Positions 10,390-50,965 of a stretch of DNA of 64,000 bases are shown piece by piece. Location of the stretch: contig NC_057379.1 of the NCBI RefSeq assembly GCF_016906535.1, positions 1,426,001-1,490,000 of the forward strand. Reading direction: 5' to 3'. Under the pieces are notes generated by a model. That model searched no databases. It had not been told where the DNA came from and worked only from the letters and a program-made list of their open reading frames with translations. The translations under genes and the position numbers were made by a program. This DNA comes from Rhizoctonia solani (lineage: Eukaryota; Basidiomycota; Agaricomycetes; Cantharellales; Ceratobasidiaceae). The first letter of the stretch is position 1. Each line of letters starts with the position of its first letter.

Positions 10390-10545
10390 TTTTTTGACAT
10401 ACTAATTGCAACACTCGTATCGAGTTTATACTCGACGAACTTCGAACGACAGAGTAACGGGTTGGCCTCCGTTACACTGTCCCATTTTACTTTATTTTAA
10501 TTTCTTCAATTGCTGATCGATCACAGAGAATAGTACGTACTGAAC
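10390..10545 (+). other. Leader of outer element
   Basis: 156 bp between the LTR and the gag ATG, starting TTTTTTGACATAC. No clear tRNA-complementary primer site was recognised. An 8-nt stretch (CGAGTGTT in the LTR, its complement in the leader) is too short to call self-priming. Confidence 0.5.
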
Positions 10546-18182: not shown

Positions 18183-18211
18183 AACCAAGGATTACCGTCA
18201 AACCCTTGGTT
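18170..18211 (+). promoter_or_regulatory. -1 ribosomal frameshift signal between gag and pol
   Basis: G GGA AAA in the gag frame (18170-18176) is an X XXY YYZ slippery heptamer. A 6-nt spacer containing the gag TGA follows. Then comes a perfect 8-bp stem, AACCAAGG (18183-18190) with CCTTGGTT (18204-18211), closing a 13-nt loop. Slipping back one base puts the ribosome on AGA CTG AAA CCA, the open pol frame. Confidence 0.75.
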
Positions 18212-21200
18212 ACAAAAAATGCGCCTATAGAATCTATTGTTTCCGAATTTGTATCTATTGCTCTTGATTCAAATAAACGCCCCCTTTTATACATTGATTT
18301 AATAGCGCAAAACTTCCCGACGGCCCCCATCAAAACTCTAATAGATTCTGGAGCAACATCCAATTTCATTTCCCCCTCCATCGTTGAAAAGTACAAAATC
18401 CCAAAAACCCAACTCGAAAATCCACAAGTTGTGAGAATGTTAGATGGTACAATTTCACAGACTGGTCGCATATGGCACCAGGTTCATCTCGCGGTCTCGG
18501 CCAATGGCCATACACATTCCATTCCCTTCCTTGTTTGCCCAATTGGCAACACTCCGGCTATCTTAGGCATGACTTGGCTCACATCAGAATCCCCTCTTAT
18601 AGATTGGCAACAGGGATCAGTCACATTCCCTGAACAGGTTCAAATTGCCTCAGAAGAAGAAGCGGACTCAGATCCTTTAGCAGACCTTCCCCCGCAGTAC
18701 CACGAGTTTGCTAAAGTCTTTGGCGAAGAAGAATTCAATGTCCTCCCCCCACATAGGGAGTATGACATCTCTATAGACCTTGTCCCAGACGCCAAATTGA
18801 CCCCTGGCCCCATATACGGCATGACGGATGCGGAATCTAAGGCGTTGAAACAACACATTGACAAGGAACTAGCAACGGGCAAGATTTGCCCCAGTACCTT
18901 GTCCGCCGGCGCTCCAGTCATGTTTGTAAAGAAGGCAGATGGCTCACTAAGACTGGTAGTGGACTATAGGAAGCTAAATGACGTCACGCACAAGAACGTC
19001 TACCCACTCCCTAGGCAAGACGACTTGATGGCCAAACTTAGGCACGCAAAGATGTTCACAAAGCTAGATCTACGCTGGGGTTACAACAACGTCAGGATCA
19101 AAGAAGGGGATGAATGGAAAACGGCATTCAGAACTAAATATGGGCTGTTTGAATATCTGGTAATGCCTTTTGGCCTCACCAACGCCCCAGCCGCCTTCCA
19201 ACATTTCATGAACGACCTGTTCAGAGACCTCATTGACGTCACAGTGGTGATCTATTTGGACGACATACTAATCTTCTCGGAGAAACCGGAGGACCACCCT
19301 AACCACGTAAGGGAAGTCCTCTCCCGATTGATGAAGAATCAGCTGTTCTGCAAGCTCTCCAAGTGCCACTTCCACGTCACTACGGTTGATTATCTTGGCA
19401 TTGTCATATCCCCCACCGGCTTTTCCATGGACCAAAAGAAGGTCGAGGCGGTGACATCATGGCCTCAACCCAAGACAGTAAAACAGGTCCAGGCCTTTTT
19501 AGGGTTTGTCAACTACCTCAGACGTTTCATTCCCAACTTCAGCACGGTTGCGCGGCCCCTACACAACCTCACCAAAAAGGAAACCCCCTGGTCATGGGGT
19601 AAAACAGAGGAAGACGCATTCCAGGAGTTGAAGGCCCTTGTCACCAAATCCCCGGTTCTTATCCACTCCAATCCAGAACTACCCTACTACCTAGAAACAG
19701 ACGCATCAGGGGTAGCCATGGGAGCTATATTGAGCCAAAGGGGAGAAGATAACCGGCTCCACCCGATTGCGTATATGTCAAAATCCTTCTCTGGTGCTGA
19801 AGCCAACTATGACACCCACGACAAGGAACTACTGGCAATCATTAAAGCCCTGGAGGAATGGAGGATCTTCTTGGAAGCCACGGACAAACCAGTACAGGTG
19901 TTCACAGACCATCGCAACCTTGAATATTGGATGCAGGCAAGAACCTTCAACCGACGACATGCTAGATGGCGCGTATTCCTGAGTGATTTCAATTTTGAGA
20001 TACATTATCGCCCAGGGAAACAATCGGGAAAGCCTGACGCCTTATCCAGGAGATCAGATTACACGGACGCACCCCAGGAGCCAGAGGTTATGCTACCAGC
20101 CAAGGTATTTGCCAACACATCAGAAGAGGAACTTGAAATTGTCACCAAAGTCCGGAACAAACTAAGGGAGGACCCATCCCTAGAACCCATCATCCAGTTT
20201 CTGACAGAAGACGCTGATAACGCACCCCCCTCTATCCAAAAGGCCTACCGAGACTATGACTGGGAGGAAGACCTTCTATGGTACCGAGGGAAACTAGTAG
20301 TCCCAGACTCAGAGCCCCTGAAAGAACGACTGCTTAAGGAATTCCACGATTCCCCGCTGGCAGGCCACCCAGGACAACAAAGGACACTGGAATTAATCAG
20401 CAGGTCTTACTGGTGGCCCGGTATGAAGTCTTCAGCTAAGGAATGGGTCGAATGCTGCCCAGTATGCCAAACCAATCAACGTGCTCACGCACCAACCATT
20501 GCCCTCAAACCTTTAGAAGTACCCCCATTCCCTTTTCATACCATCTCTTACGATTTCATTACGGGCTTCCCTAAGTCAAACGGGCACGATGCAATACTAG
20601 TAGTCATTGACTCCTTCTCGAAGTTTGGACACTTCATCCCAACCACAAAGAAGGTCACAGCCAAGGGCCTTGCCAACTTGTTCATTAGTCATGTCTGGAA
20701 ACTACACGGATTACCGGTCAAAACCATCTCGGACCGGGGAACAACGTTCACAGGGAAATTCCTAAGGGCTCTGTACCAGCGTCTTGGAGTCAAACCAGCC
20801 TTCTCCTCAGCCTACCACCCAGAATTGGACGGCCAAACAGAAAGGGTGAATCAGTTCATAGAATTCTACCTCAGATCATATGTTGCTGCCGACCACTTGG
20901 ACTGGGCTACCTGGTTACCGCTAGCGGAATACGCCTACAATAACGCAAAGCACTCCGCCACCGGGAGAACCCCTTTTGAATTGGTTTATGGTAGAAATCC
21001 CGTCATGAATCCATCTAACGTTCCTGCCAACGTCCCAGAAGCTGATCAAGTGGCTAATACACTAGCCCGAGAATGGCAAGAGGCGGAATCAGCACTCAGA
21101 ATGACCAAGGAGCGCATGACAGGCACAAGAGGAGTGGTACCAAGATATTCTGTGGGCGAAAAAGTCTGGCTGGACGGAAAAAACGTGGAACTTAGGACAA

Positions 21201-21595
21201 ACTCCAACAAGCTGGATCCAAAACGGCTAGGACCGTTCGAAGTCACCGAAAAAGTCTCCAGTCATGCTTACCGCCTCAAGCTACCGGAAACTCTGAAAAT
21301 TCATGACGTGTTCTACGTAGGATTGCTATCTAAAGTACACGAATCCCCAAGCCAACCATTCCTGGAACGACCTCCCCCTGAAACAATAGAGGGAGAAGAG
21401 GAATACGAGGTAGAACAGATCATTGACTCAAAGAGGCAACAGGGAAAATGGTTTTACTTAATCAAATGGAAAGGATATGGACCTGAGGAAAACTCATGGG
21501 AACCAGAGGAGCTACTTGAGCATAGTCAAGAGGAGATCGAACGCTTCAACAAGTCACGACTGAAAAAGGCTCGTGACTCCGCCAAGAGCCTTTAA
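18176..21595 (+). CDS. Inner element Pol (protease, RT, RNase H, integrase, chromodomain)
   Basis: Expressed by -1 frameshift from gag. The pol frame has no ATG at its start and reads RLKPRITVKPLV through the junction. Protease LIDSGATSNF lies at about 18340; its LGMTWL strand at about 18565. RT has KLDLRWGYNNVRI (about 19060; the usual Lys is Arg-Trp here), MPFGLTNAPAAFQ and catalytic YLDDILIFS (19253-19280). RNase H is LETDASGVAMGAIL (about 19690) through KPDALSRR. The integrase HHCC finger runs HDSPLAGHPGQ to CCPVCQTNQR (about 20345-20480). Core D-D-E residues are SYDFITGF, ISDRGTTF and GQTERVNQFIE. The chromodomain EYEVEQIIDSK to NSWEPEELL sits at about 21400-21520. No stop or frameshift, so potentially active in trans. 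Confidence 0.97.
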   Translation, partial: RLKPRITVKPLVTKNAPIESIVSEFVSIALDSNKRPLLYIDLIAQNFPTAPIKTLIDSGATSNFISPSIVEKYKIPKTQLENPQVVRMLDGTISQTGRIWHQVHLAVSANGHTHSIPFLVCPIGNTPAILGMTWLTSESPLIDWQQGSVTFPEQVQIASEEEADSDPLADLPPQYHEFAKVFGEEEFNVLPPHREYDISIDLVPDAKLTPGPIYGMTDAESKALKQHIDKELATGKICPSTLSAGAPVMFVKKADGSLRLVVDYRKLNDVTHKNVYPLPRQDDLMAKLRHAKMFTKLDLRWGYNNVRIKEGDEWKTAFRTKYGLFEYLVMPFGLTNAPAAFQHFMNDLFRDLIDVTVVIYLDDILIFSEKPEDHPNHVREVLSRLMKNQLFCKLSKCHFHVTTVDYLGIVISPTGFSMDQKKVEAVTSWPQPKTVKQVQAFLGFVNYLRRFIPNFSTVARPLHNLTKKETPWSWGKTEEDAFQELKALVTKSPVLIHSNPELPYYLETDASGVAMGAILSQRGEDNRLHPIAYMSKSFSGAEANYDTHDKELLAIIKALEEWRIFLEATDKPVQVFTDHRNLEYWMQARTFNRRHARWRVFLSDFNFEIHYRPGKQSGKPDALSRRSDYTDAPQEPEVMLPAKVFANTSEEELEIVTKVRNKLREDPSLEPIIQFLTEDADNAPPSIQKAYRDYDWEEDLLWYRGKLVVPDSEPLKERLLKEFHDSPLAGHPGQQRTLELISRSYWWPGMKSSAKEWVECCPVCQTNQRAHAPTIALKPLEVPPFPFHTISYDFITGFPKSNGHDAILVVIDSFSKFGHFIPTTKKVTAKGLANLFISHVWKLHGLPVKTISDRGTTFTGKFLRALYQRLGVKPAFSSAYHPELDGQTERVNQFIEFYLRSYVAADHLDWATWLPLAEYAYNNAKHSATGRTPFELVYGRNPVMNPSNVPANVPEADQVANTLAREWQEAESALRMTKERMTGTRGVVPRYSVGEKVWLDGKNVELRTNSNKLDPKRLGPFEVTEKVSSHAYRLKLPETLKIHDVFYVGLLSKVHESPSQPFLERPPPETIEGEEEYEVEQIIDSKRQQGKWFYLIKWKGYGPEENSWEPEELLEHSQEEIERFNKSRLKKARDSAKSL

Positions 21596-21602
21596 GGGGG
21601 GG
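21594..21602 (+). promoter_or_regulatory. Polypurine tract of inner element
   Basis: AAGGGGGGG overlapping the pol stop codon, three bases (CAA) before the right LTR. It is the expected plus-strand primer. Confidence 0.75.
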
Positions 21603-21605
21603 CAA

Positions 21606-22178
21606 TGTCATAACCTCCTAACATATACCATTGGACTCGCACGATTTTTCTGATATTTGTAGTATTTTTTACGGACTGGATATCTTTTGTTTTTCAATCA
21701 CGTGATCTTGGCGCTTATTATGCCGAGATGCCGCGCCGAGATGCCGTGCCAAGGGCGCTCAGGAGAAATCCACGCTTCTGCGCAGCCCGCAGCACGCTTC
21801 TCATTTGTCTTAGATACTTCTTTCTCTCACAAGCACAGACCATGTAGATAGTGTGCTTTGTCTATATATACAGCAGGGAAATTGCTTGGAGACACCAAGT
21901 TGATTTTACCTCGTCTCTTACACATTAGAGAAGGTAGTCAGCCAGCTAAGTAGCCGGCCCCCAAGTAGTACCAGTAGCACTCACCCCCTTATTTTGACCT
22001 ATCACACCTCCAGGCCTCAGGCCCCTCCGCATCATCAGTAGATAGTTAGTTGTCGCCTTAAGCGACTTAGTAGTTAGTAGATAGCCTTAGTCAGTTAGAT
22101 TACATAAGCTAGTGTAGTAGTACGGCCACAAGCGCCCGCCTCCACCAGCGCGTACCCACCTTACAGTGGTGTACGACA
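21606..22178 (+). repeat. Right LTR of inner element
   Basis: 573 bp, same ends as the left LTR. Carries CA at 21695, TG at 21709 and TTGA around 21901 where CpG is inferred to be ancestral. Confidence 0.95.
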
Positions 22179-22183
22179 AGAAG
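22179..22183. repeat. Target-site duplication AGAAG, right copy
   Basis: Matches 15887-15891. Outer integrase coding resumes here. Confidence 0.95.
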
Positions 22184-23515
22184 ACATACGCATATATGAG
22201 GGAAAGTCTATATTGGAAAAATATGGCTAAAGACGTGGAGAAATTCTGTGCAGCATGCGTGTCTTGCGCATCATCCAAGAAGTCGACTCAGAAACCGTAC
22301 GGGCTGCTGAAACCATTACCGGTACCCAAATACCCGTGGGCACAGATTGGCGTCGATTTCCTGGGACCATTAACGGAATCCGCGACCCTACTGGGTAAAT
22401 TTGACATGGTATGCGTGGTAATCGACCACTTTACGTGCATGGCGCACTTGATACCAACAAGGTCGGACTACACGGCCCGCGACATGGCCGAGGTATTTCA
22501 CGCGAACGTCTTTAGGCTGCACGGGGTACCCGAGATCATCATTAGCGATAGAGACAAGTTATTTACATCGATCTTCTGGAAGACGCTCTATGAACTATTA
22601 GGTACCGAACTGAGACTGTCGTCGGCGTTCCACCCACAGACGGACGGGCAGACCGAAAGACTCATACGCACGATACTGGCACTGATACGCGTGTGCATAA
22701 ACCCAGCGTTGAGAGACTGGGCAACCAAATTACCTAGTATCGAGTTCGCAGTAAACTCGGCTAGATCGGAGACCACCGGGTTCAGTCCATTTGCACTGAA
22801 TTACGGACGAACCCCACGTCCGATATTAGTGCGAACCAATACTGACATGTACGGGGTACGCGACGCGGCCCGCAACATCAAATACGCACTAATGATAGCA
22901 CACGATGCCATCATTGGTTCGCGAATAAGTCAGATGGTCGAAGCTAACAGGCATAGAAGACCTTCACCGTTTAAGACCGACGACTTAGTATATGTTAGTA
23001 CCAAGAACATGAGAGTGCCGCTGGGGAAACCACACAAGTTATTGGCGCAATGGATCGGGCCAGTAAGAATAGACGGTGTGGTCAAGGAAGGGGCCACTTA
23101 CCACGTAGAGTTGCCCGACGACTTGAAGCGAAGAGGAATAAAGCCAATATTCCACGCGTCGCTACTGAAACCACATGTACCATATGAGGATCGTCGCTTC
23201 CCGGGAAGGAACTACAAGCAGATAGCCTCCTTAGAAGCCGATGATGATGAATGGGCGGTTGAGCGGATAGGCGGACATCGCGGCAAGGGGAATAACGCGA
23301 TGTTTGAGATAGTATGGCAATCGGGAGACCGTACCTGGGAATCATACCGCGTGGTACGGCACCTTGAGGCCCTAAGACAATATTTCGAAGCCTTAGGGAT
23401 CAGCCGCACTAAAGAGCTACCGTGGAAAGAAGACGGGGAAGTACCGTACGATGAACTTAGTGATAGTGGGTCTGAAACCCTCGAATGCGCAAGCGTAAGG
23501 GTACTTAAGGAAGCG
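22179..23515 (+). pseudogene. Outer element integrase C-terminal part with chromodomain-like end
   Basis: Continuation of the outer pol. TYAYMRESLYWKNMAKD and CAACVSC complete the zinc finger. The integrase core D-D-E residues appear in IGVDFLGPL (about 22345), ISDRDKLF (about 22545) and GQTERLIRTI (about 22645). The GPVRIDGVVKEGATYHVELP beta-barrel region lies at about 23060-23120. A chromodomain-like stretch, EWAVERIGGHRGKGN with FEIVWQSGDRTWESY, lies at about 23250-23350. This half has no stop, but is separated from the RT half by 6.3 kb of inserted DNA. After ELPWKEDGEVPYDELSD the frame probably shifts near 23515 into the tail frame. Confidence 0.88.
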
Positions 23516-24879
23516 ATATGGGAACCTCAACCGGTCATCAGCACCATATCTCACTGCCTAAGACTAGATCCTTTATTATCACACTTGACTCTATCTACAA
23601 AATGTACCACGGCCGGCGAAGACGCCGCAGTCGCGACCGAGAACGACGGCGGGATGCACCACCAGCGTACGACCCAGGACCCGACGAACGAGTCGATGCA
23701 GGCTTACTACGGCTGCTCAACACGGTGGCCCAGACCAGCCTCGAAACCGTTAGGGCAAGAAACGCCCCACTCCCACAAAGGGGAAGGCGAGGACGGTTCG
23801 GGAGGCCGAACATGGCCAGGTCCCCGCATGTCGGGAGAGGTCAGATGGACCTGTACGAAGGTATTATTGGCGTCAGTACCAATGGGCCATTGCGTGCACG
23901 ACCGAGAGAGCGGACTTACCAAGGGTCATCTACAGGAAGACGCCTTAAACGGCGACGCACTCGACTTAATGCTAGGAATCGCGGCCGATCACCTACCAGA
24001 AGCACGTCGGCCTCCCGGTCTAGCGAGGGATCCACCGTACGAGGAAGAAGTACCTCGACCGAGCACGGACGAAGAACGCGAACGGGAAGAAAACGAGCGC
24101 GTACCCGATCCAGTCCCTACGACCCTACCGGATCCGGTCGAGAGGGGACCGGCGAATCATCCGAGGAGACCAGCGACGGAACCGACCCAGGCGGGGACGA
24201 TTGGACGGCAAGTCAACGAACTGGCAAGGAAGGTATCGCTGGCGATTCTCTCGGTCGAGAACGTCATATCAGTAACCACGACTCTAAGCGAACGCGTGAA
24301 GAGGACTCACCAGCGGGTCATAGACAGGGAGTGGGACATCATGGAAGACATGTCCCGTATCGCGCTTCGAGCACTAAGGATAGAAGACGAACCCAGGATC
24401 GGGGACGCAAACTACCCCCAGGAGCTGATCAGGAGGGCGTATCCCATGCCCCAGATGCCAGAGTCGACGGAGAGGGCGATCGACGACCTCATACTGGGGA
24501 TCGAGGAGCACTGGGCGACGGTCAGGGGGAACAAGGCGACTTTGAGACACTACGTACTGTCGAGGCTCCCGAATCCAGCATCGGAGAGGACGAGGACGAG
24601 CCCTCACCTGGTAGCGACGCAGGAGCCGAGCCGGCCATCGTCGGCGACCGAGACGACCTAGATGTCCGCGATGCCACTGACCACGTTGCCAAGTGGACCA
24701 ACCTCGGGCCAGACATCGAGATGCGGGACGCCGACAAGGGACTCAAGACCATCGAGCCTGAACAACCTTGCATCTCCCCAAGGAAGCTCGAACTCAAGCG
24801 ATCTTCTACGCGTCGAGGATCTGATCGAAACGACGGAAAAGGAGGAGAGCGAACCGACGGAGGAAAGGGAAGGAAGTGA
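23516..24879 (+). CDS. Arg/Ser-rich tail frame of outer element, two overlapping frames open
   Basis: From 23518 to 24661 two plus-strand frames are open at once. Frame 1 begins ITLDSIYKMYHGRRRRRSR (about 23555-23620), a basic Arg/Ser-rich protein, and ends with GEDEDEPSPGSDAG and a Lys/Arg-rich tail at TGA 24877. Frame 2 is the integrase frame. It is poor-looking early but protein-like late: IGRQVNELARKVSLAILSVE and EWDIMEDMSRIALRALRIED, ending at 24661. The better-looking parts alternate, which suggests one original tail protein broken by small indels. No known domain recognised. Confidence 0.5.
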
Positions 24880-36697: not shown

Positions 36698-38187
36698 ATG
36701 GTCGAGGACAAGTGGATTGGGCTGGCACTGGCATGCTCCAGTTCATTGGCCATTGGAACTAGTTTTATTATAACAAAAAAGGTAAATTAAAGAGTGTGTA
36801 TTAAGCCCAGGCTAACGATGTTTTTTGGGGTTAGGGCTTGAACGATGCTGCGCGACGTGGCCCTACTTCACAGAGTGCTTCAGACAACCTTTCGTATCTC
36901 AAAAACCCTATATGGTGGGCAGGGATGACTACTCGTGAGTGTGCTAATACCACGTATAGGGACACGTGCTGAGGTTATACTTCATCAGTGATCGTCGGGG
37001 AAGGTTCGTTCGGTGGTGCGACAAGTGATCTGCAACTGACCCTAAAATCAAGTTGCGAATTTTGCTGCTTACACATTTGCTCCACCAATCCTTGTCACTC
37101 CCCTTGGTGCTCTTAGCGTACTCATCGGGTGAGCTTGCTTGGCTATGCTGTTGCACTTCCCTCACATTTTCCTAGTGCTGTCCTTGCTTCAATTCTGCTA
37201 CATGAGGAGCTCGGTCATATAGGGCGTGTTGGATGTGCCTTATGTCTCCTAGGCTCCATTATCATCGTTCTTCATGCCCCAGAGGACAAGGAGATTCAAA
37301 CGGTTGATGAAATATTACAGTATGCTCTTCAGCCAGGTATGTCCTCTTATGATCTTGCTGTTTTCCCCGTTCTAACTTCATCAAGGATTTTTAATGTACA
37401 TTTTACTGGTCACCGTGTGGTCTCTCTTCGCAATCTACCGCCTGGTTCCCCTCTACGGCAAAAAGACCCCCCTAGTGTATATTTCCATTTGCTCTCTCGT
37501 CGGTTCAGTGAGCGTGATGGCCATCAAAGGGTTCGGCGTTGCTGTCAAACTCACCCTTGCTGGGAACAACCAACTCACACACCCGAGCACCTGGGTGTTT
37601 GGCATCGTTGTTGGGTCGTGCATCGCTGTGCAGATGAATTACTTTAACAAGGCGTTGGATACGTTTTCCACCAACGTGTACGTTCTATTCTCTCTTCATA
37701 AATCTATATGAAGACACTCAGTGTGGTTTGTAACAGGGTAAATCCAATGTACTATGTTGGTTTTTCAACTGCCACAATCCTGGCCTCGGCACTCCTCTTC
37801 AGAGGATTCAACACAACCGATCCAACCAACACGGTCTCCCTCATCACCGGATTTATAGTCACCTTCCTGGGCGTTCATCTGCTCAACGCGTCGCGCCAAC
37901 AGCAACAACAAACTCATTCCGGTTCGCTAGACGAAGAGGACGTTGCATGGGCTAATCCACCAGCAAGTGCAGGCGGCCACACGAGACGGAGCAGCAGCCT
38001 TTACCGGTTCGATCCCGAAATTATTCGATCAGAAGCGAACGGCGTACCTCTGGAGGAAGTGAGAGAAGAGAGCGACGAGGAAGGGGACGAGAGGACCAGG
38101 TTGCATCGAGGTGGACGTGGGCACAGTGGGAGTGCTCGTGGGAGTAGGCAAGGCAGCAGAGACCGGCTAGGCAGTGTCAGGATATGA
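36698..38187 (+). CDS. NIPA-family magnesium transporter (DUF803)
   Basis: Multi-pass membrane transporter of 392 residues, expected to carry Mg2+ across plasma or endosomal membranes. Exons: 36698-36781, 36835-36934, 36989-37003, 37053-37128, 37176-37336, 37386-37677, 37737-38187; 1179 nt in frame. Motifs of the family: LAIGTSFIITKKGLNDA, LKNPIWWAGMTTLIVGE, ANFAAYTFAPPILVTPLGAL, LHEELGHIGRVGC, VLHAPEDKEIQTVDEI, YISICSLVGSVSVMAIKGFG, NYFNKALDTFSTNVVNP and GFIVTFLGVHLLN. The tail is Gln-rich, then acidic/basic and disordered. Exon 3 is a 15-nt micro-exon encoding LIVGE-type residues of a transmembrane helix. Divergent from UGT6. Confidence 0.95.
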
Positions 38188-39383
38188 GTTTGTATCATAC
38201 GTAGAATATGTGCGTTTTCCCTCCTTGTTGGTCCCTCTCGTCAACATTCATAAACCTTTCTTGATTCTCATACCACCGGGCAACGTGAACATCGGCTGTG
38301 CAAGCGCCTAATACCTAATGTAGTTCAACGAGTGGTGGGTTCTGTTTTAGAGAATTGAACCCGACAACCAACGAACTAAAAATTTATAGCTCTCAACCAG
38401 ATGCAAAACAGGCAGCAACCAAAATAATCGAGATGACTCAACAATAACTCGCGTGTCTTCTCGGGAAAGCCCAATCGACTCGGGGCCGAAACTTTCGAAT
38501 AGCGCTTCTCACTCGGAAGCCAGGCACAGAAATGACTCGCATTAGAGATGTAATTAGTCCGGCATGCTATGTGCGTAAATTCCCGGTAATTCCCAGCATA
38601 CTTGAAAGCTCATGAACTAATCTAGCCAAGGCGCCTGATAATTTCGAGCCAAATCCATAGGTAGTAACTCAGTAAAAATCGACCAAATAGCCATGGAGGT
38701 ATAAGCGTGTCTGTGTCAAGACTCGTTAGCAATTATGGGGATAGGCTCACTTTGATTCACTAGTACTATGCTCCAACGGGACACGTGAATGCATCCGTAT
38801 GGTTTACACTGGCCAACTATAGCCAGTGTAGACGGGCCGAGCGACGAATCAATCCGACTATGGTATTCTTGAGCACGCGTGAGATCATTATCGGCGACTT
38901 GAATTGTGCTACTAAATAACATTCCATACACAGACGGGTGTTTCCAATAAAACTTCCATAATAAACTTGGATTCGGCTGGATTGATAAGACCGAGCGCAA
39001 ACAATCAACAGTAACATTCTTACACACTCCTTCGAACTAGTCAACCTGTGCAGGCTCAATTCATTTTTCAATCCAATTTGTTTAGCGCATGCACAGTCCA
39101 GTACATTGCGACATTATCTACGGTTAACGTACAGAAGAGGATCTATTACACTATAACACAAACAGCAGTGAGCATTTGACCAAAGAGAGAAACCAAGGTA
39201 GGACATGACATAATACAGCATTCGAAGGTGCTTCCAACTAGAGAAATCAAGTATTAATATATATAAATCAACCGAGACGATAGCTGATAAACTCACATTC
39301 ACTTCAATCTAAAAAATCAATAATGATATGAACGAATCGTGGAGGGTGTGTATGATTTGTTTGTTTTGATTTTTTTTGCGCAT
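38188..39383. other. Intergenic region, nothing recognised
   Basis: AT-rich spacer. Short hydrophobic frames at 38817-39302 on the minus strand do not resemble STE3 receptors or any family known to me. Confidence 0.4.
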
Positions 39384-39488
39384 TCATGCAATGACGCAGT
39401 ATGAGCTGCTTCCATTTCGTGTGGAGAGTTCCTGGTCAACAGGTTGCTCAATCTCGGAGGGATATTCGTAAGAGTAGACGGCGTCCAT
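39384..39488 (-). CDS. Mating pheromone precursor 1 (CaaX: CVIA)
   Basis: Single-exon gene of 34 residues, below usual length cutoffs. It begins MDAVYSYEYPSEIEQPVDQE, continues LSTRNGSSSYCVIA and stops at TGA. The last four residues form a CaaX box, so the Cys would be farnesylated, the VIA removed and the Cys carboxymethylated, as in secreted basidiomycete lipopeptide pheromones. Arg-Asn, seven residues before the Cys, is a plausible N-terminal processing site (mature NGSSSYC). The core EQPVDQELS and end SYCV are shared with the genes at 49072 and 50767; the middle differs. No TATA box was recognised in its promoter. Confidence 0.85.
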   Translation of the reverse strand: MDAVYSYEYPSEIEQPVDQELSTRNGSSSYCVIA

Positions 39489-40239
39489 TTCGAGTAACGT
39501 GAGAATATGAGTATGCGTCGAGTAGGTAGGTCTGAAATGACCACGTTAGACGAGGGAGCAAGTGTTCGTACTGAATCTGTCTACCGAGATCCCGTAGTTT
39601 TAATGCGAGATTGCCCTTTCTTGTTCAAATAGGACAATTGAAGACTAGTGGAAGGCTCGTTGAGCCATGTGCACGTCCATGCCTTTCAGGGCTATTGTAG
39701 AGTCCGAATTCAGTAATCCCGCGGTCAATAGGGATAGTGGGAGGAAGTAATTTGCAGCGCTAAGAGCCATGTGGAGGACAATTGCACCCGGCGAAGCGAT
39801 CGTACCTTATCAAAATCCTTTTTGATTGTCATCGGGGCGATGACGAACAATAGGTATTCGGTGTCGAGATCTCATTCCGTAGGAGCACGTGGGAGATTGC
39901 CAACTCCTAGATCACGTGGCATGTGCACACATCAGACCACCCAATTGATAGAAGATATACAAATGGAGATGTTCTTTTGCGTCTATATACGAACCTCTTG
40001 GCAACTTATACAACAATTAGCTGGTGTGAAGAGTTCGGGACAAACCCTGGTTTTTACTCCGGAGCTGGATGGGCTGTCACGTGACAGCTTCTGTCTCCTA
40101 CTCGCATATGTATTGATGCGTTGATAGTCGACATTGCTAAGATGAGTGTGTGACATAGCAAATTTAGATGACTTGATACTCATAAACCTTTGCAACGAAA
40201 CCTGCGGAGACGCAAAAGAACGATTTAGCCCAGAACATC
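39489..40239. other. Promoter side of pheromone gene 1 and spacer
   Basis: No gene recognised. Several CACGTG palindromes (39886, 39915, 40079) are present, possible bHLH-type binding sites. Confidence 0.35.
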
Positions 40240-40447
40240 TAGCGAGCCACGTGACTACCGCTTCATGCTGTGTCACTTGCGTCCGACCTCGTACACACCG
40301 AGTGCCGTGGAACGCCTTTGCATGCAGCTTATATCTCGTCCGTCATCCTGCAAGGTCATGAGAGCTGGTTTGGGCCGCCCACCCACGAGCCAGACTCGCG
40401 TTCGGGCGCCCCCAGTCCACCGTCGCTACTTCGCAGCCGCGGGGGGA
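40240..40447 (-). repeat. Dispersed GC-rich repeat, copy B
   Basis: Inverted match to 29069-29270: CTCGTACACACC-AGTGCC-TGGAACGCCTTTGC and CTTCGCAGCCGCGGGGG. Diverged, with an 18-bp gap and a different middle. Confidence 0.65.
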
Positions 40448-42044
40448 CGAGCAGAGGATAAGTTATGAATATGAAACTATTGATGGCTTCGGGCTCTCTA
40501 GAGTTTGCGAAGGGACCAGACTCAGTGAAGCACGAATGTCTAGGTTCTTTCAAGTAATCAAGTGAGTATGGACCAGTTCCTTAATTGAACTTCCCCTCGA
40601 TCGGGCTGGGTCTATTTCTCAGGACGCGAATAAATTCAGTCTCATTTCTTAAATACGAGCGCGGGTTTACCAGAGCGCGACGTACGTGCGTTGGACATGT
40701 ATGTATGGGACGAAGCACTGCATAGTTTATTGGGCCACTGGTATCCATCCTGCCATTACGCTGGTGGGTATTACAGAGTGAAGAAGCTCAATGTATGTAC
40801 TAGAAGAATTTAGTATGCTCCATGTAATCCATTCAGTGAGAACAAGAGCACAAACCAATGGTATACATGCGCAGCAATGTGCACTTGTACGCATTACCCT
40901 CATAAAGTGACCCGACTGGTTCGACCAAGATCATAAGACGGCTTGAAAGCTTCCCACCAATCATGGTTTTCTCTCTTAGTCTCAGTCTCATCGATCTACT
41001 TGTATTTAACTAGTTAATTTTATATATATCGTTTCTTATCTACCTATTTCTACACATAGAGTTGAAGGAACGCAGCGTGTCACCATTCAACTAGACACCA
41101 TAACTTCATTACACATGCTTGAAGCCTGGTGTAATGTATCTCTTTTGATGTTGGATATGCGAGCATAGTCATCTCGCTCAACATTACGCTAAGCACCGAT
41201 CATCGCCCTAAAGAATATAAGACCATCCTCATCCACCGCTCGACATGTTAGGTAAGATGTGATAATGTATTTTCTAAAGCCATTATCTGCCGATGTTTCA
41301 CCCGCCCACCTATTTTTGTAATCCAGTCGTATGATTACTGACCGGTGATCCTGAGGGCGTAACCGCAATTATCACCGCGGCTCGCGCCATCAACTTCGTC
41401 CCTTTTCTTAGCCGAGTACATTCGGGCTGTCCGAAAGTGCCTTTTGATGTTTTATACTTTATGTGCTAGTAGTAGCCCTGATAGAGACAAACGACAGGAT
41501 CAAAATTCAAACTCCGAAAAACTTTTGTCAGTACACTGAGTTGACAGGTCTGAAAAGAAATCCTGACATGTCAACTTAGGAATGCTGCCATCCTATCACG
41601 CGCTTTGCGCGATTGCCTGATACGACCCGGTCTACTGCGAATGCTTCAGGCCATGGTACACCGGAGTGAGCATAAACATAGGATATATTAATCTACTGAT
41701 TTATAGTCGAAAGCAGCTTTCTTCGCTTACATGTCAAGGTTGCGGACCATTACCATTCTATTTCAGAAGTGCTGACAAACAAACCGTAGAAGCAAGATGT
41801 CCATAACAAAGATCTCAGCGTAAGATCTAGGTTTTATTGAGCGTAGCTGACGTGATTCCATTAACGCGGTGGCTTATAAACTGCTTGTTTGTAACCCGCT
41901 ATGACAAATAACATAATCACTCCCAATAATGCAGGAGACATGAACAACAATTGTGACAAATAGCGGGTATATATAGACTGTCAGTAGAGCTACAGAGAGC
42001 ATCATCCAACTTTCAAACTGCTGGCGCGAAATTCAACCCGTAAC
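40448..42044. other. Intergenic region upstream of UGT7
   Basis: 1.6 kb, AT-rich, no gene recognised. The UGT7 TATA box is at its end. Confidence 0.4.
41968..41975 (+). promoter_or_regulatory. TATA box of UGT7
   Basis: TATATATA, 77 bp before the ATG at 42045. Confidence 0.6.
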
Positions 42045-43955
42045 ATGACTAACTCACCACTCAACCACATGATATTTATCCCTGGACCACCATGGGGTGA
42101 GATGCTACGCCGTTCTCCAACCGCACCGCCTCTGACTGAGCAGATGCTTCAGGACATCTGCGCCCTGGCATGAAGACAGCTCTTCGACTAGTAGAAAAGT
42201 TCCATGGCATATTTATTTGTTTGTATCTATTCGACTTCCCGTTATCCAGTGACTCATTTCTTGCAGCTCTATTCGTGTATCAGACAGAAGTACACAAGGC
42301 GGTCAAATACCTCGACGCACAGCGGTCTACATATACAAGACGGATCAGAATCGTCACATCATCAAATAATGGGGGACCATCAGTATCATTAGGTAACCCA
42401 ATTGGAATGATTGAGTCTTTAGAGGGAGCGTTCAGTAGATGGATTGCCGCTGAGCTTTGTCAGGCAACAATCATACAGGTTGATGGGCGACCTGTAAATG
42501 CTCCTACACTAATTATACAAGACATCTTTACTGGGGGCATATCTTTGACTTGCAAAGACGTGCATAGTCTACCAGTAGTGGGATGGTGGCTAATGCCAGC
42601 CGCATCGCTTATATGGTATGATCTTCATTATTTACTCACCTTTGTGATACAGCTCAAACGTACAATAGTCATTTAGAAATGATAGAAATGAGCATTAGTC
42701 GAGGAACACAAGACGCGCAGAACTTGATCCAATACAAACTTCAAAGCGAAGATGTGTTGACCAAGTCCAAGGACCTATCTCCACAGGTAAGCCAAGTTTG
42801 CATCTGGGGGGATGTAGCTAAATTTGATTTTGTCAATATTCAAGGATATCTCCAACTTATTGGTTTGCGTGCCAGGAATTCCTCCTCATTATCAATGGGA
42901 GATGGCAACGCAAGAACTCCCATTTGCAGGTCCAGTCATGTCGTTTTTACTTGGAAGATGGAAAGCAATGGTAGAACGTATTGATACTGTCATATCGTGT
43001 ACAACGTTCGAGATGGTACGTCTACTTGATTGAAATGCGTTCACACGTTCCTCTCTTACCTGCGTATTCAGGAGCCTATATCTGCCACTGCCCTACCGAA
43101 ATTCATAGGGAAAGGCCTTGAACAGTTCTGTATTGGTCCTTCCGTAGACCTTACCCCACCTCATCAGCCAGATCCCGATTCGCCTGTCACACAATTTCTC
43201 GACCGTGCGTATGCTGAAAATGGCGCTCATTCAATTATCTACATTTCTTTTGGGACACTCTTTTTCCCTCTTATGGACTCGATACCTCATTTGATGGCTG
43301 TTCTCGATGAAATCTCGAAGTTTGGATATAGATTTATATTTGCTTTATCATCAGCAAGCGCGACCCTTGACAAGTCGTGGATGGATGGACATATTGACGC
43401 AGGAAATGCGATATTTCCTCAATGGACCAACCAAACTGCGGTTCTTGAACACCCTGTATGTCTCACTATTTTTGAAGCTAAAGTCAAAAACTCACTAATG
43501 TTACTGTAGGCCATTCACTACTTCTTGTCTCATGGCGGGTGGAACTCGACCACCGAAGCGCTTGTTCGTGGTGTCCCAATGATCTTCTGGCCGATGGGGG
43601 TAAGCTATACTCCTGTGAGGCTCGCCTAGTTTTAACGATGTTCCAGGCCGACCAACCTACAAATGCTATACAAATCGCCGCTGTTCATGATTGCGGTTTT
43701 GAGCTCCTACAGGTTCGCACTGGGCCCGCCAAGTTTGTAGCCTACCAAAACGGCAGGGAGGTCGAGATAGTTGGTACCGATGACGCTGTGCGCGACGAGA
43801 TGGGGCGAATACTCAAGATGAGCAAAGGGACACGAGGCAGACACCAGCGAATGAATGTTCGAATGCTGGGTAGGGTTATTACTGAGTCTTTAGGACCGGG
43901 GGGTAGTGGGGATATTGCGCTTGAAAGACTGGGCGTGAAGTTGGGTCTTGTGTAA
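42045..43955 (+). CDS. UDP-glycosyltransferase UGT7
   Basis: Intact GT1-family enzyme of 512 residues, the only UGT here on the plus strand. Exons: 42045-42096, 42153-42218, 42267-42615, 42669-42786, 42845-43015, 43072-43455, 43510-43599, 43647-43955; 1539 nt in frame, GT-AG introns throughout. Exons 1, 2, 5, 6, 7 and 8 have exactly the lengths of UGT4 and UGT5. It starts MTNSPLNHMIFI. Acceptor half: AAELCQATIIQVDGRPVNAP and GGISLTCKDVHSLPVVGWW. Donor half: [52 protein letters not shown] and [14 protein letters not shown]. It lies between pheromone genes 1 and 2. Sequence features are intermediate between UGT2 and UGT4-6. Acceptor unknown. Confidence 0.93.
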
Positions 43956-46082
43956 TGAAACCGACACAGTATTAAATCGACATATAGAACATCTGGATTT
44001 ATAGACTTAGTGCCTTGTATACAGAAGCGCCCTGCTTATTATGTTTAATCGAGCATGTCTTAGAAAGTGGTCCCAATACAATTATTGAACAACTGAGTTA
44101 TTGAGATCCTTTAAATTGTAAGATAAGACTTAGGCTCCGGGGCTCTGACTTTCGAGACCCATGTATATGATGTTGCCAGGTTCCAGATGGCCCGGAGGAT
44201 CCGGTGCGGAGCACGTGCTGGATGTGTCTAGGGTACTCACGGGCGGGAGGTGGGAGAAAATGTCGATAACTTAAACTTACATAAACCAACTTGGGCTGAC
44301 TTAAATTGTCGAGGAGGCCGGTAATTGACACACAGGCACAGAGTAGTGCATTGGAATGACGAGCCGGACTTAAGAAAATAGAGGCGCGTGGGAAGGGCGA
44401 GCGCGCCGTACGAACGTGGTCGACCACGAACACCGAGCAGTCGCGTGGCTGGGTTTACACATATTCGGTAAGTGTAAATTATCTTCTGTGTCATCAGAGA
44501 AGTCTCGACCCCGTTTTTGATAGATCTACGTATTATTATAAACTCAGAAACAGCTACTTAGTAAGCCCGTATCCGCGCACTGCAGTACATACATTTCTAA
44601 GCCCGTATAATATCCTGCGGAAATTTTCTCCTTTAGTAGTTGAGAGGTCGCCTAATTTTGTACATCAGTCGCTCGCTTGATCTTTCTCTCGTCCTCCTCC
44701 GGCCCTCAACCCATGTTTTCGAGCCCATTTCTTGCACTTGTTTCCATGATTACTTCTCTATCGCCTGTTCCGTCCACCAATGTCCTACTTCCATCTGTCA
44801 AGTCCGATCGATAATCGCCTCCGGGATTTCCAGAATACATTTCCATCGCCAATTTCCAATGTTTCAACTTCTTTGCAAATCGGCATGGTCAATGTAACTC
44901 AATTTTCGATAGAACGATCAATGAATGCTTCCATCGAGATGAGCAAATGGGAGCAAAGTTTGAGACCAATAAAAGAAGCCAAGATTCTGTATTTGCGAAA
45001 GGAGTAGGCAGCCGCGGCCTGCGCAAACCATCCATTGAGTCCTTTGCGGCATATTATTCACTCCCAACCGTGACCGTAACAGTACCCATGATTTAGGACC
45101 CCCTCTGGGTACCTGGGTGCTATTAAAATAACGAGTACAAAAGATCCTATCATAAAAATCTATAATCTACAGCCCCTCGAACCCAAGAGGATATTCTGGG
45201 ACGCTCCGACTTTTGGGATTGCCCTTTCTGTCCGAGCGAATCCGGAGCGCTCCGCGAGCACTTTGGGGCGTAGCGAAGGCGCTTGATCCGATCTCCTAGC
45301 CTTCGGCTATCTTTATGAGTCTCCAAGCGACCCGGAGATTTTTGGGTCACCGTAGGGTAGTTTAATTGGTTCGGCCCATCAAATGTTTTAGGTTTACGCC
45401 AAAGACTATCTCATCTGAGTAATAAAGAGGGTGCTTTTTCATATTCAACTGAGATAGAGAGAGTTGATATACCGCAATAAACTATAAAACGATAAGTATC
45501 ATAAACAAAATAGGGTGTTCAACGCGCACTATCCCGGAGAACCATGAACTACGTATGATCCATTTAACATTCAGGAAGCCCGTTGCGCCAATATGATATC
45601 GAGTATACACCACGTTGTAAATGTAACTGAGCATAATTCATAGACCCATACTCTATCAACGGCAGCTTACCATTGTGATCACCTATTTAATTTGCCCTCC
45701 ACTACGTATGACTTACTAGACCACCAAGGTGACCCCATAGTTGATTAAACTTTTGACCGAAAGTACCATGCGGATAGGGACTTAATTAGAATGCATCCGC
45801 TCACGGGAAGTAATTATAGTTGTGTCGTAGCGGTCTACGAGCTGGGCTGGGCTGGGCTGGCACAAAAACCTTAAACTGTGATCGACTCACTGGATATATG
45901 TATGCTTTGCTCTGAAGAACTCCCCAGCTGTCGATTCTATCTCCTGCGCTCTATCAACAGTTTTACCGGGTAAGTATTATAGATATCTGATTCACAAGGC
46001 TAATATACCTTGTAGATAACCCTATACTAGGATATATTAACATAGACTGGTCTATCTCCGTCGTCTTTCCATAGAGATTGGA
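43956..46082. other. Intergenic region with a 4x GCTGG run
   Basis: No gene recognised. GCTGG is repeated four times at 45841-45860. A GC-rich patch at 45175-45360 (CGGAGCGCTCCGCGAGC) stands out from its AT-rich surroundings and may be a repeat remnant. Confidence 0.4.
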
Positions 46083-47724
46083 ATGTCGCTCTCCGGGTTT
46101 TCATTCAACGATATCATCGGCACGATCATCTACTTTCATGGTCAACAGCAACTGGCAAAGTACTTAGCAAGTCAGCTACTATCTCGTTCAATATACATAT
46201 CTTATGATCTAAACTCAACTTGCCAAAGTTGTCTCGCTAACTTTACTTGCGTATGACTGGATTCTCAATATTGACATGGAGGTCGAATTTGTCTGGGGGC
46301 GTTCATGGACTTGGGGTCGTTTTATTTATCATGTGAACCGGATATGGTCCATAATTTTACTAGGGTATGTTTTCATTCAGTTGAGGTTCAGCGTTCATGT
46401 GATAATCAGTTCGAGATATCTTACAGGTCATCTTTGACGAGTGAGTAGCTAGTCGCTTAAACCACAAGCTTATTGACAAGATTTTAGTAATACTCTTCCT
46501 TCCTTTACCTAGCCCTTCTGTAAGTACCATATTCTTAACACACATCAACGCATGATCAAGGCAGATTCCTTAATCAATAATTTGAACAGATGTGATAAAT
46601 CTATCATTTCCTTTAAGTAGCGATTAACGTTAACATTATGTTGGGTTTAGCTGTAAAAAAGCTAGTTTCCTTTACTCATATGGTGCAATATTTCAATGTA
46701 CAATCATATCAGGTAAGCTGATGCACCGTTTAGATGTCATTTATTCTAAAACTCTGCTCCTCAGTAATGTTGATTTTACGGTGCTGGGTACTTTATGACA
46801 AAAAGTGAGACGCTTTGTACCGTAGGCTATCTCCGCCCTGATATATTTGACATAGGCTAGTAGTTTGGTAGGTTGGGCCAATTTAGCTAGAGAAGCTGTT
46901 GCTATATCCTCTACCTGAAGGACGCTTTGCGTACTCCAAGTTGGGGCCGCTACTTATGGTGTTGTTGTTGTCAAGTTTTTACTGGATGTAAGCATATTCA
47001 TTATTCACCGGCTCGAGAGAATTTTAAACCTCGATGGACCAAAGAGGTCTACGTTTCTAGATAATCCTCGTAAGTCCGGACCCTTCCTATCCCCATATAC
47101 CACCCACGAGGTTGATTATCTCCAAAGTCCCCAGCGTATTTTCTGGGTGCATCGTAATGGTAGCAGGCAATGTATGGATACTATACATAGTCCCGGTGAT
47201 GTTTGAATCGGTCTTGTTCCTCTTAACAGTGGCCAGGATTTATGTGCTAAGCAAGGAATTTGGATCGACGCCCCTGATGCAGACACTGGCTCAGAAGTGA
47301 GTGCTTACTATAGTGACATCACGTAATACAAAATGCTCTTTCCTCTCCACAGCGGAATATCGTACTTTGCGGCTCTTGTTGGAATCATGATTCTTGCATG
47401 TGTTGCGGGGGTAATCCCCCCTTTGAAGATCGCTGCCAATGGTTCTGGGTAAGCATTTCAGAAGTAGAGCACCCAGACAGATCCTAACAAATAACTACAC
47501 GACCCAGAGTACTTAGTGCTGTCGCAAGCGTAGTGTGTAGCCGTATGGTCTTTTCACTCTATCAAACTACCAGCAATCACACGAACCAAGGACAAGAAAC
47601 CACGTGCACAAGCGGGCGTAGTGGAAATAAGGAGGATATAACGACTCGGTTTGCAATCCCATTAAAGTCGGTTGCTAGTTCTAGTATACCCAGCAGTGGC
47701 GGCAGTGGGCTTGAGCAGGTTTAA
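46083..47724 (+). CDS. DUF6533 multi-pass membrane protein
   Basis: Integral membrane protein of a family abundant in Agaricomycetes, function unknown. It starts MSLSGFSFNDIIGTIIYFHG. The DUF6533 motif follows in exon 2 (about 46229-46364): SLTLLAYDWILNIDMEVEFV, WGRSWTWGRFIYHVNR. Further exons give CKKASFLYSYGAIFQCTIIS (about 46659-46710), VMLILRCWVLYDKK (about 46764-46806) and WILYIVPVMFESVLFLLTVA (about 47175-47240). GISYFAALVGIMILACVAGV (about 47352-47410) precedes a Ser/Thr-rich tail ending GLEQV. About ten very short introns; internal boundaries between 46440 and 47100 are uncertain. It sits between pheromone genes 1 and 2, but the family is not known to include pheromone receptors. Confidence 0.75.
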
Positions 47725-49071
47725 TTGTTAGATATCTGATCTATATGCGTACGAGTAGCGAACACATTTTTAAAACCCAGGCGACCAACGATTTAGCGTT
47801 GAAAATTCATCGGGGATAAGAGAGCGGGTGACCTGGAGGCCTAGACAGAAGAATCTTAATCTTTTGGATTCAGCCCAGTATCCTACAGGAAGTAATGGGA
47901 GAGAGTATAAATATCCTTAATGAGGAAATCCCTTACGCACCTTTAACTCTAAGCTCCAGTGAGCCGTGGACTGCGGAAAATGTTATGAAATACTTATCTT
48001 CTGGATTCGACAATGGAGCGCCTCCATAGCTTAGAACAAATGGCTCTAGCGGACATGGAATTGCGCAATCAAGTGCGCGGAGAATGTAACAAATAGGTTT
48101 CTAATTTTAGAAGCTATTTGACAACGCCTCTTTGGCACGCTAGTATTTGTCGCTTTGAGTATTGGTACAAAAACGAAGTATAGAGCATTGTTATCTCAAT
48201 CACCATACGGTTATAATGAGAATTCAGCCTAAATTTCAATGGTCCTTGCTCTGTATGCATGGTCTAACCGGACCACCAAGTATTGTCGAAGTCTTGCGGG
48301 GTAATTATTCAATGATTCATTATTTTAGCGTTAGGTTCAGTGAACTAATTTGATACAGCCAATTTGACACAACTGAGTGTCAAGTGAGGTACGTAATTAC
48401 GATTGGGTATCTCCCCCACGGTGCTGCACTTCACTGATCCCTCTTGATCGGAAATAATAAAGTAGTATGAGAAACTCTGGGTTGGAGTATAAATGTTACC
48501 CGTCTTGTGGCATGAATTCAGCGTCGGGATCTCGGCGCCAGCATTGCATCACACCCGCAAAATGACAGAGATCATCAGCGTGCCAATATTAAGGCTTTGG
48601 GCAGGTTATTGCTGATTCGCTTAGGTCGGGTGGAAGTCGAGACATGGCACCAGAGAAATTTGAGAATGCCTTAAATCTTATCTGATAGGTTTTATATTTC
48701 ATAATTGAATATGCACTACAGCTATGTGTATACGACAAAGCAAAGCAAAAAAGCAATGATTATGAGCAAGAAAAGAGAATTTACGCACGCGTACGTACGG
48801 ACTAATAGGGGTTCATAACGCTGCCCTGTAGGCTCAGCATTGCCTTCAATACGGAGGATATATGAAAATCTGGGCCTGGTGATTCAGAATCTGTGCTACA
48901 TAATTGACTTTAAATCCAATGGCATATATATTTGAATAGCTGCGTACGGTTACAGTCTACAAGAGACGATTCCACATAGCATTACTGGTACACGCAATGT
49001 AGATCAACACAACACGCCAATCAAATTAATGATAAAATGAGAACAAAAGTATATGAACAAATACTTGTAGC
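47725..49071. other. Intergenic region, nothing recognised
   Basis: AT-rich spacer between the DUF6533 gene and the 3' end of pheromone gene 2. No domain-bearing frame. Confidence 0.4.
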
Positions 49072-49185
49072 CTATACGAAGACACAGTATGAACCAGAGC
49101 CAAACCTCCCAGAGAGGTCCTGGCCAACAGGTTGGTCAACCTTGGGGACGGAGGCAGGAGAGTAGGTGTATATTGAGGAATGCAT
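49072..49185 (-). CDS. Mating pheromone precursor 2 (CaaX: CVFV)
   Basis: Single-exon gene of 37 residues: MHSSIYTYSPASVPKVDQPV, then GQDLSGRFGSGSYCVFV and a TAG stop. DQPVGQDLS matches the core of the other two genes, and GSGSYCV matches the end of the 50767 gene. CVFV is a CaaX box with Val last. Arg-Phe, seven residues before the Cys, is in the same place as the Arg of the other precursors. A TATA box lies 94 bp upstream. Confidence 0.85.
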   Translation of the reverse strand: MHSSIYTYSPASVPKVDQPVGQDLSGRFGSGSYCVFV

Positions 49186-49279
49186 TTAGTTAAGGCTGTA
49201 CGAGAGGCTCAAATTCGGAGTGCTGGTAAAAGTAGGAACGCAGCAGCTACCGAGCACCGAAATATGCATCTGAGGCATG

Positions 49280-49286
49280 TTATATA
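49280..49286 (-). promoter_or_regulatory. TATA box of pheromone gene 2
   Basis: TATATAA on the minus strand, 94 bp before the ATG at 49185. Confidence 0.5.
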
Positions 49287-50766
49287 CTCCTTGAGCGTTT
49301 TTGTTCATGAATGTGGCATGCAAATGAAGAGCATTTAACTATACGCAGTTATTCCCCGTGGCAAATGGATAGCAAATATGTGTCCCAAAATGAGGATATA
49401 ATTGGTAGGGAGTAATGTTAGGTCCCAGTGGACAAGTATGGTTACTTGGAAATCACGTCCACGAGGGAGACTAACCGGCCAAATAACAAGTGCGTACCGA
49501 ACGCTTCGCACGGGATGGGACTGATAGCGGGCGCGCTCTCAACAGTGTAATTAATAGCGGTAAATGTATTGATAGCGGAATAACTAAAGATAAAAGAAAG
49601 ACAGACGGAAAACTAAACTAAATGAGTGGGTGAAAACAGAGACGACGGCAACGGTACTCCTCACCTCAGTCGCGCTTAGCTAATGGTTGCGACGACTGAG
49701 GGTTGGCTACAAAAAGAAACGCTTTCATACTAAGGAGAGGAAAGGCGAGGCACGAACAGGGAAAAATCCAATTATAAAGGACATATATGCGCTATAAGCG
49801 CCGGCTCCGACGATTAAGCGTCCATCCTTCGCAGTACACCCGTCCTTCGGCCGGGTGTTACATTATAAGCGCTTTGATAAGTTCACATGTGATATAGCCA
49901 TCTGTCAAAAAACCTTCTCTGAAAAAACATCAGGACAGGGTTGTGAAGCGAGGCCCCAATCGTTTTGCCATACTTCGTGTCAACCCGTTGGTGGTGGTGG
50001 TGGTGGAAATACAATTCGCTGTCGCAGGTCTAGGCTTCTTCCTTGGTTTTCGCTCTAGTGCACTATCGATCCTGGAGTTCGGTAGGCACCAAGCGGCCCA
50101 AACTGTGCCTATCAATATTCATGTTCTAGAACCAATATATTACAAACCAGCTGGCCAAGGCTCTATCACGCTTGTTTAACAAGTCCATATAAGCGATCGC
50201 TTCGCCACTTTTAAAGAATTAAGTCGAATTGACGTTCCAAGCAATCTATTACTGACAAGCGGGAAAGTGAAAACCGTCTGTACAGCCCGCCCTGCGTTCG
50301 ACGGAACGCATGAAGAACAGGCTTCGTTTAATCAATAACGATCATTCGCAGTCCACGACACCCCTTTCTGAGACTGAACAATGCATTTATGGAGTGTGAG
50401 TTCCTTTCGTTTCAGAAATAAATTGCTTTTTTTGGCAGCTAACAACGGAAGACACTCAAGATGCAGACGTGCCAGATAAAGTATATGGCGGGAGCTTTAC
50501 ATTAAAATTCTAATCCTAACCAAATTATACAAGGTCATCTTTTGGGAGCCTGGTAGAGTCATATACACTCTCAAAGTCATAAAATTCTATAGTGAAGAAA
50601 ACAACTCTTAAAAGTACTCCGAAAAGTATCACTAAAGCAGAAAGTTTTATATTTTGCCCAAGAGAATGATACTACAAATGCTAGTACATACAACCACAAG
50701 CTGCCAACCCATATGAGAAAAACGGGAGAAAATAGAACGAATAAGTTTGAACGAAGATGCTATGTT
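49287..50766. other. Spacer between pheromone genes 2 and 3
   Basis: No gene recognised. A GGT trinucleotide run lies at about 49988-50006. The patch 49490-49870 repeats short motifs such as ATAGCGG and TAAGCGC; no transposon ends were identified. Confidence 0.4.
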
Positions 50767-50886
50767 TTATAAGATGACACAATATGAGCCACTGCCTGCT
50801 CTATTAGACAGTTCCTGGTCGACTGGCTGCTCCTCCGCCGAGGGGGCTGAAGCAAAAGAGTAGATGTAGATGGGTGTGGAATCCAT
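50767..50886 (-). CDS. Mating pheromone precursor 3 (CaaX: CVIL)
   Basis: Single-exon gene of 39 residues: MDSTPIYIYSFASAPSAEEQ, then PVDQELSNRAGSGSYCVIL and a TAA stop. It shares EQPVDQELS with gene 1 and GSGSYCV with gene 2, so the three are paralogues. The terminal Leu of CVIL is the residue that usually directs geranylgeranyl rather than farnesyl transfer, unlike the Ala of gene 1. Asn-Arg, eight and seven residues before the Cys, fits the processing site. A TATA box lies 72 bp upstream. Confidence 0.85.
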   Translation of the reverse strand: MDSTPIYIYSFASAPSAEEQPVDQELSNRAGSGSYCVIL

Positions 50887-50957: not shown

Positions 50958-50965
50958 TATTTATA
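50958..50965 (-). promoter_or_regulatory. TATA box of pheromone gene 3
   Basis: TATAAATA on the minus strand, 72 bp before the ATG at 50886. Confidence 0.55.

Follow-up and report, generated by a model that had tools for sequence, protein, structure and literature searches.

A group of three very short open reading frames (ORFs) on chromosome 10 of Rhizoctonia solani AG1-IA XN (Ceratobasidiaceae, Cantharellales), each ending in a CaaX box, raises the question of whether such a cluster marks a pheromone/receptor (P/R) mating-type locus, as a preliminary description of this DNA had claimed, or belongs to something else. The window analysed is the whole stretch of 64,000 nucleotides from position 1,426,001 to 1,490,000, and genes are labelled by contig (10a–10e on contig 10, 13f–13i on contig 13 and 4j on contig 4). 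The reading we favour, and consider fairly probable, is that the three genes belong to a family of ten genes for precursors resembling those of lipopeptide pheromones, which is situated outside the mating-type locus and gives prenylated self-signals for two STE3 receptors that do not belong to the P/R locus. The identity as precursors is well supported by the sequences; receptor and function are proposed by analogy. The three genes of the window, each found by alignment, genome query and pattern count, are:

Gene 10a, 39384..39488, minus strand, precursor of 34 amino acids, MDAVYSYEYPSEIEQPVDQELSTRNGSSSYCVIA
Gene 10b, 49072..49185, minus strand, precursor of 37 amino acids, MHSSIYTYSPASVPKVDQPVGQDLSGRFGSGSYCVFV
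Gene 10c, 50767..50886, minus strand, precursor of 39 amino acids, MDSTPIYIYSFASAPSAEEQPVDQELSNRAGSGSYCVIL

Position, strand and length of all three agree with the preliminary description, and an alignment of the proteins, with 17 invariant columns, confirmed both the core [DE]QPV-x-Q[DE]LS and an arginine seven residues before the cysteine in every case. The end had been misread as SYCV followed directly by the stop; it is SYCV-[IF]-[ALV]-stop. A CaaX end by itself is weak evidence for a pheromone gene, since the window holds ten loosely defined CaaX ORFs (ATG start, 20–120 amino acids, genes 10a–10c included) compared with a mean of 4.4 and a range of 0–9 in 100 dinucleotide shuffles of the window. 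The family pattern, on the other hand, has three occurrences in the window, whereas all 100 shuffles lack it.

When the whole genome (40,703,773 bases in 16 contigs) was searched, each of three queries (10c, 13g and 4j) returned the identical ten places. The counts of this search are lower bounds, giving a family of at least ten genes, so that the original set of three, although all its genes are real, was incomplete. A reversed-sequence query gave 0 candidates (forward: 10), an empty answer that is no proof by itself. The genome query placed the members as follows:

Contig 10: 1465384, 1475072 and 1476767, minus strand, three members
Contig 10: 1512855 and 1514952, plus strand, two members 23–25 kb beyond the right end of the window
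Contig 13: 1477072, 1478011, 1522123 and 1523356, all minus strand, four members
Contig 4: 436013, plus strand, one member

All ten are very short ORFs ending in C-a-a-X, with frame and CaaX box intact. The genes on contig 13 form two pairs ~45 kb apart (L037 7072-8121; L041 2123-3463), and because 13f and 13h as well as 13g and 13i are alike in their flanks too (82% over 325 bases, 78% over 541), a pair was probably duplicated.

Nei-Gojobori estimates of omega (dN/dS) were 0.25 for 10d/10e, 0.19 for 13f/13h and 0.18 for 13g/13i, and in these three recent pairs pooled 25 of 84 synonymous sites differ against 18 of 243 nonsynonymous sites (p=1.1e-6), a test limited to the recent pairs because many of the older ones are near synonymous saturation. 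The frames are therefore under purifying selection at the protein level among paralogues, and a dN/dS near 1, which had been named beforehand as an argument against the genes (there for isolates, here for paralogues), was not seen. Pooled over all 45 pairs, the proportions of differing sites were 0.64 for synonymous (pS) and 0.25 for nonsynonymous sites (pN), and the pooled pN/pS was 0.30 in the core and CaaX part compared with 0.56 in the N-terminus.

A profile of the ten sequences was run on a set of 5.8 billion proteins (3427 candidates); 14 proteins reached E<=10, and for 11 of these E was <=0.003. A C-aliphatic-aliphatic-A end is present in 14/14, EQP[VI] is kept in seven, and two carry the precomputed Pfam Pheromone domain PF08015; named sources are Coprinopsis marcescibilis (P0003, E 2.4e-10) and Ceratobasidium sp. 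AG-I (P0010). Together with the CaaX alignment and the constraint among paralogues, these relatives bear out the earlier proposal that the genes are small basidiomycete CaaX precursors of the pheromone type. Six of the 14 are two-unit precursors in which a CaaX-like stretch closes each unit.

These six are P0002, P0003, P0006, P0008, P0011 and P0013, one of them from Coprinopsis marcescibilis. In five of the six the residue after the inner CaaX-like stretch is K or Q, and prenylation of the inner unit would require cleavage behind that unit.

P0010 is annotated with 72 amino acids and has a family-type start inside that frame, showing that annotation can misplace such genes. Two single-sequence searches of the same protein set gave no match, and none of the ten family genes was returned from it, whether the set holds the XN proteome not being established; it is plausible that the ten genes are absent from annotation.

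As to the mating-type locus, the P/R locus of XN has been published on chromosome 15, with the mating pheromone precursor gene XN_Mfa at chr15:699219-350 (PMC7884421), and at this position (contig 15, 699219-699350) a CaaX ORF of 43 amino acids was found ~0.5 kb from an STE3 match, which fixes the P/R locus on chromosome 15. A genome-wide search revealed STE3 matches at three places (contig 15 at 700 kb, contig 15 at 1.55 Mb and contig 10 at 194 kb) but none within the window, and the nearest match on the same contig lies 1.27 Mb from the window genes. The idea that the genes mark a P/R mating-type locus therefore fails. A scan for CaaX ORFs in the 30 kb around each STE3 place, performed in separate 10-kb pieces, revealed none of the ten family genes and, with the exception of XN_Mfa, nothing that was judged pheromone-like.

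The core P[VI]-[DG]Q-[ED] is conserved in the family and aligns with the ER processing site of XN_Mfa, the dipeptide at this site being DQ in nine genes and GQ in one. In the aligned relatives the same site is DR in P0007 (canonical, where the family has DQ) and DE in P0005, and otherwise DK, DM, DQ, DY or NQ. A cut behind DQ/GQ, which we infer from this alignment, would leave 12 residues in 9/10 genes and 11 in the remaining one, within the 11–13 residues of mature Agaricus peptides (PMC8305134). For gene 10a the predicted mature peptide is ELSTRNGSSSYC, prenylated, if cleavage takes place after DQ, for gene 10b it is DLSGRFGSGSYC if cleavage takes place after GQ, and for gene 10c ELSNRAGSGSYC is predicted. 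The last residue of the 10c precursor is Leu, so that geranylgeranylation rather than farnesylation is possible for its product.

According to the mechanism proposed, the cysteine would be prenylated, -aaX removed and the new end carboxymethylated, and an N-terminal cut behind the dipeptide would give Ser/Gly-rich peptides of 11–12 residues with a YC end. After export, they would be ligands of at least one of the two STE3-type receptors located away from the P/R locus (contig 10 at 194 kb, contig 15 at 1.55 Mb) and would serve as a self-signal when hyphae grow or fuse, with no part in choosing a mate. Non-mating STE3-type receptors are widespread in mushrooms, and the Schizophyllum ones that have been studied are called orphans; overexpression of the receptor-like proteins Brl3 and Brl4 results in self-avoidance, and self-pheromones have been proposed as their ligands (PMC8161036). 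By analogy with Brl3/Brl4, self-signalling via non-mating STE3 receptors is likely in R. solani, for which additional non-mating receptors have been stated (PMC7884421). The matches on contig 10 at 194 kb and on contig 15 at 1.55 Mb score highest against each other in three of the four exon stretches compared (103 vs 92 and 75; 62 vs 54 and 53; 45 vs 35 and 30 bits).

Several observations weigh against this reading. In the fourth exon stretch the match on contig 15 at 1.55 Mb is closer to the mating receptor at 700 kb (37 vs 34 bits), and for this reason the exon comparison only weakly suggests that the other two form a non-mating receptor group. The charged dipeptide of the class (ER/DR/EH/NH/EE/DE) is absent at the aligned site of the family, and the Gly+Ser fraction is as low as 0.45–0.55 in all five contig 10 peptides, compared with 0.70–0.73 in four of the five contig 13 and contig 4 peptides (13g: 0.55). 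PF08015 scores 13.6 bits for gene 10a against a cut-off of 22 and gave no match to 10b and 10c, and of its five matches in the genome none is above the curated cut-off. In a tree of 21 short proteins none of 18 forks was starred, and the split between the family and the mating-type precursors is weak (74/82). The PF08015 model is to be taken as an indicator, without the force of a biochemical definition, and its sub-cut-off matches pointed to the members on contigs 13 and 4.

Comparable precursors are known from other mushrooms. In Agaricus four precursor genes are located on chromosomes other than those of the receptors, and three of the peptides resemble non-mating-type ones (PMC8305134), while four mutually similar precursors in Pycnoporus are presumed to be of the non-mating-type kind (PMC4101180). 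As in PMC8305134, the R. solani precursors are short, carry a CaaX box, are unlinked to a receptor, exist in several similar copies and mostly start with MDS, and the predicted mature peptide falls within 11–13 residues with a YC end. The published peptides include the cinerea consensus GGGSGNGAYC, GGGSGNNAYC of L. bicolor and the products of four A. bisporus genes, and the contig 13 and contig 4 peptides of R. solani, for instance ETSGGSGSGSYC, come near this consensus (PMC8305134). The R. solani family differs in its N-terminus (MDSxxxYxYS instead of MDSF-like, YxYS being kept in the N-terminal half of most members), in having DQ/GQ where ER/DR/EH/NH/EE/DE is found, in precursor length (33–39 amino acids compared with 44–54 in Agaricus) and in the contig 10 class, which contains an Arg (ELSxRxGSGSYC) and fewer glycines (PMC8305134).

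With RhiMfa/XN_Mfa the family shares the CaaX end (YCVIA in XN_Mfa), and EDPIEREG of XN_Mfa aligns with EQPVDQEL of the family, but XN_Mfa has 43 amino acids and a predicted mature peptide of 15 residues, adjoins the chromosome 15 receptor and falls into a separate group of the weak tree (PMC7884421). The tandem (Rha2) precursors of red yeasts consist of repeated CaaX-ended units, as do six relatives of the family, a likeness drawn without a test of sequence homology; each R. solani gene has one unit (PMC3236058). Among the open full-text papers listed for Rhizoctonia pheromone genes, one on this subject was recognised (PMC7884421). The present family extends the class to the Ceratobasidiaceae (Cantharellales) and to a rice sheath-blight crop pathogen with an unclear mating system, and a putative ten-member ligand family beside only two non-mating STE3-type receptors in one genome is a small concrete set of peptides for testing. 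It also gives a warning that a cluster of CaaX genes is not enough to identify a mating-type locus.

The alternative that survives best, though we hold it to be unlikely, is activation of the mating receptor on contig 15 at 700 kb by unlinked peptides of the same strain, leading to partner-free signalling and self-fertility. R. solani AG1 to AG4 are stated to be homothallic (PMC7926851), and for Agaricus the possibility has been raised that unlinked pheromone-like peptides could switch on the mating-receptor ortholog without any mating (PMC8305134); the genome paper, however, calls the mating system of R. solani unclear and the reports conflicting (PMC7884421). The peptides are moreover strongly unlike XN_Mfa with its predicted mature form of 15 residues, and relatives exist in Coprinopsis and Ceratobasidium, which means that the family is not confined to a homothallic R. 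solani lineage.

It is less probable still that the peptides are genuine pheromones of mating type and that this region of contig 10 is a second mating-type locus. The CaaX precursor structure and the clustering would fit, but no STE3 match is found within 1.27 Mb, the P/R locus has been published on chromosome 15 (PMC7884421), and ten similar copies on three contigs are not what is described for the mating-type precursors of a single strain, which are very distinct (PMC4101180). We give equally little credit to the view that the products are small prenylated peptides acting inside the cell or at a membrane rather than secreted ligands, even though the C-terminal CaaX is the sole diagnostic feature and the N-terminal half is also constrained, if less so than the core (pN/pS 0.56 vs 0.30), with YxYS in most members; release of units is an easier explanation for the 6/14 two-unit relatives, which recall the red-yeast tandem pheromone genes (PMC3236058). 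That the genes are non-functional relics of pheromone genes, as their not being returned from the protein set might suggest, is hardly credible with frames and CaaX boxes intact in 10/10 and an omega of 0.18–0.25 in three independent pairs.

Mating-type-like precursors form a separate set at four places, which are XN_Mfa, contig 15 at 650264 (L046 1501-1632), contig 8 at 305902 (L045 1501-1632) and contig 15 at 399058-399177. Of the three beyond XN_Mfa, one is separated from the mating receptor by 49 kb. A single Mfa per (sub)genome, and one for XN, is named in the portions of the genome paper cited here (PMC7884421).

The flanks of the family genes contain short recurring elements, which in the window are:

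39330..39337, minus strand, ATTCGTTC element 3' of gene 10a (flank motif comparison)
39621..39626, minus strand, GAACAA 5' of gene 10a, at -138
49281..49306, minus strand, GAACAA and TATA-like hexamers 5' of gene 10b, at -121 and -101
50736..50755, minus strand, TTCGTT twice, 3' of gene 10c (flank motif comparison)
50960..50965, minus strand, TATA-like hexamer 5' of gene 10c, at -79

Upstream of gene 10a no TATA-like hexamer was found. ATTCGTT occurs within 120 bases 3' of the stop in nine of the ten family genes, compared with a maximum of 5 for any 7-mer in the 3' flanks of 200 shuffles and a local background expectation of 0.012 per 120 bases, and is possibly a 3' untranslated region (UTR) element; in these nine genes its distance from the stop codon is at most ~50 bases, and it is often followed by CTTATTATT. 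GAACAA is present upstream of eight genes, a borderline result against the null maximum of 7 (200 shuffles). Its position is -121 to -153 in 7/10; TATA-like hexamers are found at -79 to -123 in 9/10, the spacing between the two elements being exactly 30 bases in five genes. The 3' element is thus the stronger of the two, and common descent of the paralogues may be the cause; because the upstream element is borderline against the shuffles and the paralogues share their ancestry, no regulatory claim is made for it. In the three mating-type-like genes that were read, this layout is missing and ACAAAG-type sites take its place; TTCGTT is also found 145–188 bases downstream of two of them.

An extended version of the favoured reading, which we put forward tentatively and think rather doubtful, is a second, private lipopeptide signalling system beside mating, in which two chemical classes of self-peptide, driven by shared control elements, would pair with the two STE3 receptors that are not part of the P/R locus. 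The Arg class (ELSxRxGSGSYC) would be that of contig 10 and the Gly class (ETSGGSGSGSYC) that of contigs 13 and 4, and the candidate control elements would be GAACAA ~30 bases before a TATA-like box and TTCGTTC close behind the stop, a layout absent from the three mating-type-like genes read.

The genes flanking the family members in the window include no mating-locus neighbour, as judged from 20 long ORFs, 8 of which have a Pfam match; among these genes are a NIPA transporter, ATG5, an ACT/amino-acid-kinase and a P-type ATPase. A setting in a centromere or transposon island, as reported for Agaricus, finds no support in the reverse-transcriptase matches, which are scattered along the chromosomes (150 of the 788 candidates were scored). 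Pieces of the gene for the NIPA-type magnesium transporter (window 37117-38184, plus strand) adjoin gene 10a. The window also contains a series of plus-strand frames (10534-24876) with long terminal repeat (LTR) retroelement domains: gag/protease together with reverse transcriptase/RNase H in 10534-15936, then protease, reverse transcriptase, integrase and a chromodomain in 18164-21592.

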